Shown here: positions 23,877-27,971 of the stretch, piece after piece
Layout: each line of letters starts with the position of its first letter
How positions within the stretch are numbered: the stretch's first letter is position 1
Assembly (NCBI RefSeq): GCF_014701195.1
Contig: NZ_AP018712.1
Location: forward strand, 2,250,501-2,314,500
Direction: 5' to 3'
Origin: Tepiditoga spiralis
GTDB taxonomy: Bacteria > Thermotogota > Thermotogae > Petrotogales > Petrotogaceae
Length of the DNA: 64,000 bases
Position numbers and translations under genes: made by a program
Notes under the pieces: generated by a model
What the model was told of the DNA's origin: nothing
The model's database searches: none
The model's input: the letters and a program-made list of their open reading frames with translations, nothing else

Positions 23877-25043
23877 ATGAAAAAAATACCTATACTACTT
23901 TTAATATTATTTTTGTATTCAAATGTTTTTTCATATAAATATATTTTTTTGTTTATTGCCGATGGGCTGGGAACAAATCATATTAATTTAGCAAATATTT
24001 ATTCTGAATATAAATATAAAAAAACATTAAATATGGAAAAATTAAATAATTTATCTTTAATGACATCTTATAATAAAGTAATGGATACATCGGCTGTTAT
24101 GACTTCTATAATGAGTTTTAATCAAACAAATAATGGAAATATAAATATTGATTATAATGGAAATAATATATTCCCAATAACTTATTATTTGAAAGATTCT
24201 GGATATAAAATAGCTTTGATAACTACAAAAAAATTAACTTCTGCTTCTCCAGCTAGTGCATATGCACACTCTACATTTAATAATAACAAAAATATTTCTA
24301 ATCAATTATTAAATAGTAATATAGATTTATTAATTGGTGGTGGAAGAGTCGATCTTCCAAATTCAATAAATAATTTTGAATATAAACTACACATTCCAAA
24401 TACTCCTTCTTTAAAACCAGAATTAATAGTTACTTCTTACTCAGATATGCCATATTTTATTGATAAAAGAAAATCTATGAACGTTATGCTAAATTATGCA
24501 TTAAAAAAATTTAACAATAATAAATTTTTTATTTTAATAGATTCTTCTAAAATAGCAAATGCTTCAATAGCACATGATACTTATGCAATGATAAATGAAT
24601 TAATAGATTTTGACAATTCAATAAGTTCCGCTATAGAGTTTTCAAAAAAACATATAAAAGATACCTTAATTATTGTTTGTGGTAGCCATGAAGCTGGTGG
24701 ATTGAGTTTAGGCGATGGTTTTATAAATATAAAAAACATTGATATTCAAAAGTATTCTTATGAAAAGATATATAAAATAATGAAAGATTCTAAAAATTTT
24801 TATGAATTTTCAAAAAAATTCTCTTTTCCAATAGATTTAAAGAAGGAATATGATTTATCTAAAAATTCTACTACTTATTTAAATCCATTAACAAAAAAAG
24901 TTTTAAATTATGTAAATAAAATTTCTGGAATTAAATGGAGTACTTATGGATATACTGTTAATTATGTTCCTGTTTTTTCTAATTATAATTATAAAAATAT
25001 AATAAAAAGTACAGAATTACTTTGGATTTTATATTCATTTTAA
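23877..25043 (+). CDS. Alkaline phosphatase homologue with degraded metal sites
   Basis: An exported 388-residue protein with a signal peptide (about 1-19) and alkaline phosphatase architecture: FIADGLGTNH (D29), the nucleophile region VMDTSAVMTS (S72), TSASPASAYAH and CGSHEAGGLSLGD. Compared with the E. coli enzyme from memory, the metal ligands are eroded: the E322 position is D222, D327 is A227, H331 is I231, D369 is S270 (H271 kept), and H412 is Y359 in TYGYTV. Only the first aspartate, the serine and one histidine survive. Zinc-dependent catalysis is unlikely. It is the last gene of the envelope cluster, 4 nt after the UPF0173 gene. Confidence 0.8.
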   Translation: MKKIPILLLILFLYSNVFSYKYIFLFIADGLGTNHINLANIYSEYKYKKTLNMEKLNNLSLMTSYNKVMDTSAVMTSIMSFNQTNNGNINIDYNGNNIFPITYYLKDSGYKIALITTKKLTSASPASAYAHSTFNNNKNISNQLLNSNIDLLIGGGRVDLPNSINNFEYKLHIPNTPSLKPELIVTSYSDMPYFIDKRKSMNVMLNYALKKFNNNKFFILIDSSKIANASIAHDTYAMINELIDFDNSISSAIEFSKKHIKDTLIIVCGSHEAGGLSLGDGFINIKNIDIQKYSYEKIYKIMKDSKNFYEFSKKFSFPIDLKKEYDLSKNSTTYLNPLTKKVLNYVNKISGIKWSTYGYTVNYVPVFSNYNYKNIIKSTELLWILYSF

Positions 25044-25060: not shown

Positions 25061-25150
25061 TTCAAGAATATGAAATTTTTTTCATTAACTGCAAATATTC
25101 TGTAATTTTTTTCATTAACCAGATGTAAAAGAGATATTTCATATTTTGAA
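25061..25150. repeat. Inverted repeat enclosing a 30-nt-period direct repeat
   Basis: Arms TTCAAGAATATGAAAT (25061-25076) and ATTTCATATTTTGAA (25136-25150) are complementary except for one missing base. Between or overlapping them, AATTTTTTTCATTAAC occurs twice, at 25074-25089 and 25104-25119, exactly 30 nt apart. The right arm runs into the -35 box of the small RNA promoter. It could be a regulator site, a miniature element or a terminator of the upstream operon. Confidence 0.6.
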
Positions 25151-25173
25151 AAAAAAATTAACTATTGTATAAT
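25146..25173 (+). promoter_or_regulatory. Strong promoter of the candidate small RNA
   Basis: TTGAAA (25146-25151), a 16-nt spacer and a consensus TATAAT (25168-25173). Transcription would start near 25180, immediately before the first stem of the predicted RNA. Confidence 0.75.
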
Positions 25174-25179
25174 GGCTTT

Positions 25180-25289
25180 GCAGGTCATCCAAAGAAGGTA
25201 CCCTCCCTCCTAAAGTGATCTGTCCCCGGAAATTTTTACAGATTTGAGATATCAAATTTGTTTAAAAAAGCCCTTATGGGCTTTTTTTT
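25180..25289 (+). ncRNA. Candidate small RNA with C-rich anti-Shine-Dalgarno loop
   Basis: A transcript from the promoter at 25146 would be about 110 nt long and ends in an intrinsic terminator. Near its 5' end CAGGTCA (25181-25187) pairs with TGATCTG (25216-25222) and encloses CCCTCCCTCCT (25201-25211), which is complementary to AGGAGG-type ribosome binding sites. Downstream, ATCTGT/ACAGAT and AGATTTGA/TCAAATTT are mutually exclusive stems. No open frame with a start codon is seen. I do not recognise SRP RNA, 6S RNA, tmRNA or any riboswitch core in it. A leader of the downstream gene is the alternative. Confidence 0.6.
25264..25289 (+). terminator. Intrinsic terminator of the candidate small RNA
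   Basis: AAAAAAGCCC-TTAT-GGGCTTTTTT with a T run to 25289; a clear Rho-independent terminator 67 nt before the next gene. Confidence 0.9.
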
Positions 25290-25355
25290 ATTGTATTTTT
25301 TTAATAAATATGGTAATATATTCAAGGAAAGAATTTTTTATGTGGGGTGATTCTA

Positions 25356-27971
25356 TTGAGTTTAAAAAAAGATATTAAACTTCCTTATGATATAGGGTTA
25401 ATATTAAGCTTTTTAATTGTTTTGCCATTTTTTATAATACCTAAGTGGGTTTATGAATTTTCAACTCAAAAACATATGTTTTTTGCTTTGTTTTTTACAG
25501 CATTATTTATTTCGTATTTATTTACAAAAAGAAATAAAGTAATAAATATTGAATATACACCAGTTCATATTTTTTTCAGTTTTTTTGGTATATCTACCCT
25601 TTTATCTTTAATATCTGTTGCTATTGAAAATCCTATATATTTAAGGGTTTCAGTAGAAACATCTCTATATACTATATTAATAATTTCAGTTTCTTTTCTT
25701 ATAACTAAAAAATTTGGAGAAAAATTTAAGTATATTGAATATGCCCTCTTTGCTTTGTTGATAACTGGTACAATTATTGCAATAGATGGATTATTAAATA
25801 AATTATTTGGATTTGATATATTTTTTGGTAAAATAGGAGATCCAAATGCAAGAATTGCTTTAAGAACAACTATTGGAAATCCTAACTTTGTTTCTGATTA
25901 TCTTGCTCAACTTTTACCGATAGCAGTTTATTTTACATTAAAAAAAGATTCTAATTTATTTATAAGATTTTATGGATTATTTAATATCTTTATAATGTAT
26001 TGGGTTATACTATTTGCTCAAACAAGATCTGTATATATGGGATTATTTGCTGGTATGATTGTTGCTCTTGTGTCTGTTTTAATTTCGTATAAAAATCAAG
26101 AATCTAAAGAGTATTTAAAATCAAAAAAATTTATTTATTATTTTATAACAATAATAATTATTTTTATATTTCTTTTTGGAATGTTTAACATAAAATCACC
26201 TTTTAATAAAAGTGGAGAAGTTAATGCTTCAAGTAGATTTGTTGCAATGGCAAATGGTTCTTCTTGGGATGAAAGAACTTTGTCTTGGATGGCTGCAATA
26301 AAACAATTTCAAGATAAAAATCATCCTCAACATATTATAATAGGTGGAGGTATTGATACATATCCTGTATATGCCCTTTATTACATGAAAGATGTACAAA
26401 AAGAAAATCCAGAAAGATTTTTATATGCTTGGAATAATTTTAAAAGGGCACACAATGATTATTTACAAGTTTTAGGTGAAACTGGATTAATAGGTTTTTT
26501 TAGTATTTTAGGTATAATAATTTCACTTTTATTTATATTTTTCAAGTCAATAAAACAAGAAAAAAACTTTAATAAAATGCTCTTATTTTCATTATTTGCA
26601 TGGATAGCTACTATAACAATAGTACATTCTGCAACTGAATTTCCAATGCATATGCATCCAAATATTATGGTAACACTTTTCGTATTATCAGTAGCTGTTT
26701 CAAAACAATTTAATACTATAAAAATCAAAAAAATTAATACACTGTATGTTTTGATACCTATTATTTTAATTGGTATAGTAGTTTCTTACTTAAAAGTTTT
26801 ATCAACAGCATCTGAAGTATACTTTAAGTATGGAAATAATGAATACAGTAAATTAGATCAATATTATGAAATATCAAATACTAAAATTCCACAAGTTTTA
26901 AATAATATAAATGCTCAAATAAATACTTATAAAAATCAATTAAAAAATTATTCACCATTTTCTGAACAGTTTAAAAAAATAAATGAAGCCATAAGTTCTT
27001 TAGAAAGTAGAAAAAATACTTTAAAAAGAGAACAAATAAATTATTTTAATAATGCAAAGAACTCTTATTTGAAGTCTAAAGAATACTTTTTAAAATCGCT
27101 TGATATGAATCCTGCTTTTGGGAAATCTGCTTTTTATTTAGCTCAATTTTTTACAAAGTATCCATTTAGATATGAAGAAGTGAACTATAATTCATTACCA
27201 GATATTTTTGAATTAAAAAGACCAGAATATAGATATATTATAAATGAATTTAAAGGTTCAATTGATTTAATGCCGTTCACTTCAAATAAATTACGCGATA
27301 CAGTAAAAGATATTTATAATTTAGCTTATAATGAAGAAACTAAAAATATAATACTTTCTATTCAAACAACTTTAGATGAAATAGATGAACTTGAGTATGC
27401 TTATACTTCTTTTAATGAAAAAAATGCTTACAGACTAATTTCTAAGTATCATTTAGTTATAATAGAAAAATTGAATATTTTAAAGTCTAAAGTTAAAGAT
27501 TCTAAAAAAATAGATATTTTATTGGATAATGAATTAAAAGAATTTTTTCATTGGTATGATGAAGCTATAAAATTATTACCTGGTGCATGGAATAGATTTC
27601 CAGAATGGGAGAATATATATTCTGAATATATAAAACTAAATATGATACTTTTAAATTCTAGAATTTATAACCAAAGTATTTTATACAATAAAATACTTGA
27701 AATAACAAAACAAGATGGCATGGCCAATTATTATATGGCTCTTAAATTTAGAGGAATTCCAGACGTTTCATTAGAATTATTAGATAGTCTTTATTTAGCT
27801 TCAAGTACTGAGTATAAAGATAAACTTATTAATGCAATAATAAATAATTATAAAGATGTTTATAATTATTATTTAGATCAAAAAAATAAAAATTCTAACT
27901 TATACATTAATTATAAACAAAGAATAGATAAGTTTATAGTAACATATTCTCATTATTTAAATAAGAGATGA
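25356..27971 (+). CDS. O-antigen ligase/Wzy-type polymerase family protein with large C-terminal region
   Basis: An ~871-residue polytopic membrane protein with about 11 hydrophobic segments in the first ~460 residues. It carries the Wzy_C/WaaL signature near residue 366 (HNDYLQVLGETGLIGFF), preceded by a large loop with arginine-rich FAQTRSVYMG and GGGIDTYPVY. The last ~400 residues are soluble, helical and possibly TPR-like, starting with SEVYFKYGNNEYSK. Members join or polymerise surface polysaccharides at the outer face of the cytoplasmic membrane. TTG 25356 was chosen because GGGGTG lies 6 nt upstream; GTG 25347 overlaps that site. The substrate is unknown. Confidence 0.82.
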   Translation: MSLKKDIKLPYDIGLILSFLIVLPFFIIPKWVYEFSTQKHMFFALFFTALFISYLFTKRNKVINIEYTPVHIFFSFFGISTLLSLISVAIENPIYLRVSVETSLYTILIISVSFLITKKFGEKFKYIEYALFALLITGTIIAIDGLLNKLFGFDIFFGKIGDPNARIALRTTIGNPNFVSDYLAQLLPIAVYFTLKKDSNLFIRFYGLFNIFIMYWVILFAQTRSVYMGLFAGMIVALVSVLISYKNQESKEYLKSKKFIYYFITIIIIFIFLFGMFNIKSPFNKSGEVNASSRFVAMANGSSWDERTLSWMAAIKQFQDKNHPQHIIIGGGIDTYPVYALYYMKDVQKENPERFLYAWNNFKRAHNDYLQVLGETGLIGFFSILGIIISLLFIFFKSIKQEKNFNKMLLFSLFAWIATITIVHSATEFPMHMHPNIMVTLFVLSVAVSKQFNTIKIKKINTLYVLIPIILIGIVVSYLKVLSTASEVYFKYGNNEYSKLDQYYEISNTKIPQVLNNINAQINTYKNQLKNYSPFSEQFKKINEAISSLESRKNTLKREQINYFNNAKNSYLKSKEYFLKSLDMNPAFGKSAFYLAQFFTKYPFRYEEVNYNSLPDIFELKRPEYRYIINEFKGSIDLMPFTSNKLRDTVKDIYNLAYNEETKNIILSIQTTLDEIDELEYAYTSFNEKNAYRLISKYHLVIIEKLNILKSKVKDSKKIDILLDNELKEFFHWYDEAIKLLPGAWNRFPEWENIYSEYIKLNMILLNSRIYNQSILYNKILEITKQDGMANYYMALKFRGIPDVSLELLDSLYLASSTEYKDKLINAIINNYKDVYNYYLDQKNKNSNLYINYKQRIDKFIVTYSHYLNKR

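Follow-up and report, generated by a model that had tools for sequence, protein, structure and literature searches.

Within the window, by which we mean the whole 64,000-nucleotide stretch of Tepiditoga spiralis DNA that was analysed, we identified a short segment that is almost certainly a conserved, independent RNA gene. We favor, with moderate confidence, the reading that it is a family-specific, independently transcribed and trans-acting small RNA (sRNA) of the Petrotogaceae, which would place C-rich seeds on Shine-Dalgarno sites and would be controlled by a palindromic box. Thermotogota sRNAs are sparsely catalogued, with one distinct sRNA listed in a 2022 survey (PMC9029176). An sRNA of this kind, structured, shared by six genera and equipped with an invariant anti-Shine-Dalgarno loop as well as a conserved operator, would offer a post-transcriptional regulator open to testing in a deep-branching thermophilic phylum, and specialists may not expect such a structured, operator-controlled and family-wide sRNA there. 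The amino-acid-fermentation regulon predicted alongside it for the family would tell when to look for it.

The putative sRNA gene spans positions 25180-25288 of the forward strand (window coordinates are used for all features of the locus, and the 2.5-Mb genome that contains the window is called G000). A forward promoter at 25146-25173 precedes it, with the hexamers TTGAAA (25146-25151) and TATAAT (25168-25173) set 16 bp apart. This promoter matches the consensus at 11 of 12 bases and ranks first among 18 promoter-like sites in a 2.5-kb scan. By itself it is no proof, because 25 lesser promoter-like sites are expected by chance in the same 2.5 kb. The segment is closed on the same strand by an intrinsic terminator, AAAAAAGCCC-UUAU-GGGCUUUUUU (25264-25290), the DNA of which, AAAAAAGCCC-TTAT-GGGCTTTTTT at 25264-25287, was the sole terminator found in the 2.5-kb scan; 0.5 were expected in shuffled sequences. 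No open reading frame of at least 40 amino acids was found wholly within the segment; a 44-amino-acid TTG frame begins at 25244 in its 3' part and reads across the terminator. From a start placed 7 nt past the -10 hexamer and an end in the terminator U run, the transcript is more likely to be about 108 nt long, running from near 25180 to near 25288. Its core (25180-25232) has a G+C content of 53% versus 23.5% in the window; among windows of 53 nt, a mere 0.011% (about 1 per 9,000) reach this richness. The sequence-only reading had proposed a near-consensus promoter and a strong intrinsic terminator around a segment of about 110 nt that lacks an open frame and is GC-rich compared with its surroundings, and these claims were all borne out. 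A short non-coding segment, no leader, that is framed by its own promoter and a factor-independent terminator agrees in these respects with the sRNA class.

A BLASTN search within the order recovered the segment in 11 more genomes, none of which lies outside the family, with a best E value of 3e-13. A covariance model of 54 positions and 9 pairs, searched against 103 genomes of the phylum, found the same 12 genomes with E values from 3e-18 to 1e-13 and no member in the remaining 91. The next best match had an E value of 0.02, so that more than 10 orders of magnitude separate the members from chance-level matches. The sRNA is thus present in 12 of the 21 Petrotogaceae genomes, as a single copy in each, and in 6 of the 8 genera; its carriers are related heat-loving and oil-field bacteria. 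It is missing from genera g5, which we take to be Marinitoga, and g8. The assignments to Petrotoga, Defluviitoga and Marinitoga are our assumption throughout; G020 is presumably Defluviitoga tunisiensis and G032 presumably Petrotoga mobilis. When 84,980 species genomes, from which near relatives of the window may have been left out, were searched for the loop-plus-tail pattern, one metagenome-assembled genome of the Petrotogaceae was returned. A Woesearchaeota match to the pattern has no stem and was judged to be due to chance, and the viral contigs searched gave no match to the sRNA. Phosphatase proteins encoded beside the homologous loci are only 41-48% identical to that of the window, and unconstrained intergenic DNA should therefore have become unrecognisable. 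The promoter is also kept in all 12 homologues, in its -10 and most of its -35 hexamer. With conservation in 11 other genomes, a chance origin of the segment is untenable.

Fold prediction and pair variation place a first hairpin at 25180-25223 of the forward strand, with its stem formed by 25180-25188 and 25215-25223. It carries the C-rich loop ACCCUCCCUCCU at 25200-25211, which includes CCUCCU; about half of the stretch CCCTCCCTCCT (25201-25211) is fully single-stranded, and its remainder takes part in weak alternative pairings of 2-3 bp. The element UCUGUCCCCGGAA at 25219-25231 is invariant and comprises the 3' strand of the stem and then a second C-rich, single-stranded stretch. The CCCC of this tail is unpaired in all 12 homologues, and GGAA is paired in some Petrotoga models. 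Against dinucleotide shuffles, the folding z score was -3.5 for the whole segment and -2.1 for the 53-nt core alone. A first stem presenting a C-rich loop had been proposed earlier; the hairpin was recovered, with its loop partly single-stranded. A second predicted hairpin on the forward strand (ACAGAUUUGA/UCAAAUUUGU, 25238-25261) is variable: G029 and G021 have a different sequence that also folds, and the Petrotoga and Defluviitoga homologues are without it. The sequence of the terminator stem likewise differs genome by genome.

Conservation extends well beyond the terminator, with 34 invariant columns in the 55-column core alignment. Both UACCCUCCCUC of the loop and UCUGUCCCCGGAA are unchanged in 12 of 12 genomes while letters of the stem drift, and the exact anti-Shine-Dalgarno hexamer CCUCCU is found in 11 of the 12 loops. 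Pairing is retained in 98% of the stem cells of the alignment, and sliding the register lowers this share to 35-57%. Four stem pairs occur in alternative standard forms, one of them two-sided (A-U/U-A) and three with G-U/U-G forms. A covariation statistic for the stem, calculated from 6 distinct rows with one two-sided change, was reached by 80 of 500 shuffles. We regard the drift of the stem with its pairs kept as supportive, not decisive, backing for this first hairpin.

The upstream region contains a perfect palindromic box, ATGAAATTTTTTTCAT (25070-25085, not assigned to a strand), which is a putative operator centred 90 bp upstream of the -10 hexamer. A weaker box with 2 mismatches, CTGTAATTTTTTTCAT (25100-25115, likewise unstranded), lies 30 bp downstream of it. 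The consensus of the box, ATGAAAWWWWTTTCAT, is a 16-bp palindrome. The 2.5-Mb genome has only two further exact copies of ATGAAATTTTTTTCAT, one ahead of glyA and one ahead of pckA. In G000, G029 and G021, which represent three genera, the perfect box is located at exactly -90 from the -10 hexamer but at differing distances from the phosphatase stop codon. The other nine genomes have a box with 2 mismatches whose centre lies exactly 12 bp before the -10 hexamer and which overlaps the promoter sequence; because the box thus sits between -35 and -10, the putative factor binding it is probably a repressor. G029 has, in addition to the -90 box, a second copy with two mismatches at -14.

When ATGAAAWWWWTTTCAT was counted with at most 1 mismatch, a majority of the 21 genomes showed an excess of about 3- to 10-fold over a reversed-pattern control, and the excess was smaller in G000, G019 and G020. 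A version of the box with one extra central base (a 15-bp spacing, which was wrong) gave a mild excess at most and serves as a rough control. We then took 20 exact box matches from G018-G021 regardless of function. Of these, 19 were intergenic, though about 90% of these genomes is coding; the 20 matches include the G021 locus of the sRNA. The genes beside them encode histidine ammonia-lyase (hutH), urocanate hydratase (hutU), arginine deiminase (arcA), 2,4-diaminopentanoate dehydrogenase of ornithine fermentation (ord), serine hydroxymethyltransferase (glyA) with an aminotransferase, an alanine-dehydrogenase-like protein, acetate CoA-transferase, peptide-binding proteins and, somewhat more distantly, butyrate kinase. 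Boxes in G000 precede glyA, gcvH, tdh and pckA, as well as genes for a livK-like branched-chain amino-acid binding protein, a succinate-CoA-ligase-like protein and an acyl-CoA dehydrogenase. Further box genes, which we take from sequence recognition to be those of indolepyruvate oxidoreductase, phosphate butyryltransferase and glutamate dehydrogenase, were also noted. From this gene content, ATGAAAWWWWTTTCAT is predicted to mark an amino-acid and peptide fermentation regulon across the Petrotogaceae. The sRNA probably belongs to this amino-acid-catabolism regulon, since its promoter shares the box with the fermentation genes.

The box is family-wide and is enriched even in genomes that lack the sRNA; examples are 25070-25085, L277, L279, L283, L309, L336, L340 and L342. 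Overlapping pairs of boxes 14 bp apart (ATGAAAWWWWTTTCATGAAAWWWWTTTCAT) are frequent, as at L329, L330 and L334 and at 207105/207119 and 1038278/1038292 of G000, and such pairing suggests cooperative binding by a multimeric regulator. An IclR-family protein was excluded as the box regulator because no gene of this family was found in G000, G021, G029 or the g5 genomes.

The hexamer CCUCCU is the core of the 3' tail of 16S rRNA, that is, the anti-Shine-Dalgarno sequence. Targets were predicted among 778 genes of G000 (from stretches covering about one third of the genome), 716 of G020 and 388 of G029. Among the 778 sampled G000 genes, GGAGG occurs before the start in 40% and GGAGGG in 8%. Pairings predicted between the loop and 5' regions reached -25 kcal/mol, and the top target was a 12-pair run at the Shine-Dalgarno region of a gene for a secreted 498-amino-acid protein (G000:C1:1043199, L179). 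Other high-ranked genes, with names read from their sequences, encode fructose-bisphosphate aldolase, pyruvate phosphate dikinase, glutamine synthetase and several ribosomal proteins. Of the 12 genomes with the sRNA, 11 have an orthologue of the 498-amino-acid protein, and the g5 genomes have none; the strong pairing was present in G000 and G029 only and was not kept in Petrotoga. On these partial genomes, 6 ortholog pairs of G000 and G020 were shared in the top tenth versus 4.6 +/- 1.7 for loops shuffled around a fixed CUCCU, and the scan gave no significant conserved target. Extended complements of the loop were not enriched in the whole genome, with 432 sites versus 517 in the reversed control. 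The proposal that the C-rich loop is complementary to ribosome binding sites stands as far as complementarity and conservation go, the loop being among the most conserved parts, and pairing is plausible; target prediction on 5' regions yielded strong Shine-Dalgarno pairings with no excess of conserved targets. We consider it somewhat likely that the sRNA acts through Shine-Dalgarno pairing, given the anatomy of the loop and the action of RoxS and NfeR1 (PMC5419742, PMC10746234).

The comparison with RsaE/RoxS made by the sequence-only reading holds for the working principle and fails for homology. RoxS has four C-rich regions and pairs with Shine-Dalgarno sequences (PMC5419742). Like RoxS/RsaE, the sRNA described here is short and has C-rich unpaired regions, the conserved CCCUCCCUCCU loop and the UCCCC tail, that are complementary to G-rich Shine-Dalgarno sequences, and RoxS/RsaE are tied to central metabolism. 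In contrast to them, it has one C-rich loop and one tail motif, is confined to the Petrotogaceae and is under other promoter control. No Rfam family was matched at gathering score among 4227 models, and up to E = 10 only weak, mostly terminator-driven matches appeared, none of them convincing; the RsaE/RoxS covariance model matched at neither level. In NfeR1/alpha-r14 of the Rhizobiales, anti-Shine-Dalgarno CCUCCUCCC hairpin loops are kept while stems diverge (PMC3927594), and ntrBC is silenced when NfeR1 pairs at its translation initiation region (PMC10746234). NfeR1/alpha-r14 and the related cuckoo/CcsR sRNAs resemble the present sRNA in their anti-Shine-Dalgarno loops and in a link to nitrogen or amino-acid physiology, which is predicted for the present sRNA. 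However, they belong to another phylum and have three or four such hairpins, whereas the present sRNA has one, with CCCUCCCUCCU. The three CCUCCUCCC-loop hairpins of alpha-r14/NfeR1 were not found here, where a single C-rich hairpin and a different motif order are seen, and no covariance-model match to that family was obtained up to E = 10, insofar as it is among the 4227 models. In the same phylum, transcriptomics of Thermotoga maritima gave 13 putative ncRNAs without definable secondary structure (PMC3636130), and our covariance model gave confident members in the Petrotogaceae only. The sRNA thus appears to represent a new, previously uncatalogued family that would work like RoxS/RsaE and NfeR1 and is homologous to neither by the tests run.

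On the basis of what is read from sequence, namely a conserved gene with its promoter and terminator, the loop, the operator and the genes of the regulon, the favored reading of a box-controlled, trans-acting sRNA would proceed as follows. The sRNA would be transcribed from its own sigma-70-type promoter in the 3' region of the alkaline phosphatase gene, and transcription would stop at the intrinsic terminator. The first hairpin would display the partly single-stranded CCCUCCCUCCU loop, and the single-stranded CCCC after the stem would serve as a second seed. Pairing of these C-rich seeds with G-rich Shine-Dalgarno sequences, possibly assisted by Hfq, would block translation initiation. The shared palindromic operator would place the sRNA with amino-acid and peptide fermentation genes, so that it may be derepressed alongside these catabolic genes and lower mRNAs that are dispensable under those conditions. 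All 21 genomes of the family encode Hfq; the g8 genomes G036 and G037 have two Hfq genes each, and other family members have one.

A rather unlikely version of this scheme is a general, anti-Shine-Dalgarno-mimicking translation brake under the fermentation operator, preferentially silencing genes with the strongest Shine-Dalgarno sequences upon a switch to amino acids, with translation and sugar-metabolism genes as example victims. It would explain a fixed loop and tail in the face of no single conserved target. We also judge it rather improbable that the C-rich segments serve as a protein-binding site or a sponge, an element that titrates Hfq, another RNA-binding protein or another RNA. The absence of a conserved mRNA target from the scan, the conservation of two separate C-rich stretches plus GGAA and the presence of Hfq in every genome agree with such an element; its weak points are that 11 of 12 loops keep exactly the anti-Shine-Dalgarno hexamer and that the comparable loops of RoxS and NfeR1 act at Shine-Dalgarno sites (PMC5419742, PMC10746234). 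A sponge for CsrA was disfavored, as the GGA of the loop region is not conserved, being absent in G000, G029 and G021.

An alkaline phosphatase gene (23877-25043, forward strand; PF00245, E 1.8e-30) lies directly before the sRNA and is read in the same direction. Such a gene precedes the sRNA in every sRNA-bearing genome, always with 100-160 nt from stop codon to sRNA, and no clear terminator is seen in between in Petrotoga and Defluviitoga. Phosphatase transcripts may thus run through and share the 3' end of the sRNA in these genera. This arrangement would suit a 3'-UTR element of the phosphatase mRNA, either a terminator with a stabilising hairpin or a processed 3'-UTR sRNA, next to an incidental promoter. 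We nevertheless find this quite unlikely: the -35 and -10 hexamers are conserved, the operator keeps a fixed distance to -10 and not to the stop codon, conservation of the loop exceeds any need of a terminator, and the RNA is intact in G031 despite a broken phosphatase frame. At that Petrotoga-like locus (L263), stop codons interrupt the phosphatase gene, or a sequencing error is present.

Downstream in the window lies a gene for an O-antigen ligase (Wzy_C) protein (25347-27971, forward strand; PF04932), and a ligase gene is located about 150 nt past the loop in G000, G029 and G021, as would be expected of a cis-acting leader or attenuator. In the nine genomes of Petrotoga/Defluviitoga type, however, the next gene is convergent and no ligase gene lies downstream. 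A protein-based search of genome contigs for the downstream ligase gave no match. Because of the convergent gene, and with a strong terminator ahead of the ligase gene and no Rfam leader matched at threshold, a leader is highly improbable. Thus neither a known family nor a leader, either of which would have spoken against an sRNA, was encountered. A very short peptide encoded by the conserved segment is hardly credible either: in most homologues a frame of about 10 codons (MICPRK.. / MFCPRK..) opens with GTG in the 3' strand of the stem, but one inserted base shifts it in G021, no spaced Shine-Dalgarno sequence precedes the GTG, and the loop upstream of the frame is equally conserved.

As a separate observation, the Shine-Dalgarno sequence of the G021 ligase gene (L070), AGGAGGG, is complementary to the usual loop, and the loop of G021 itself carries CCCUCUU.
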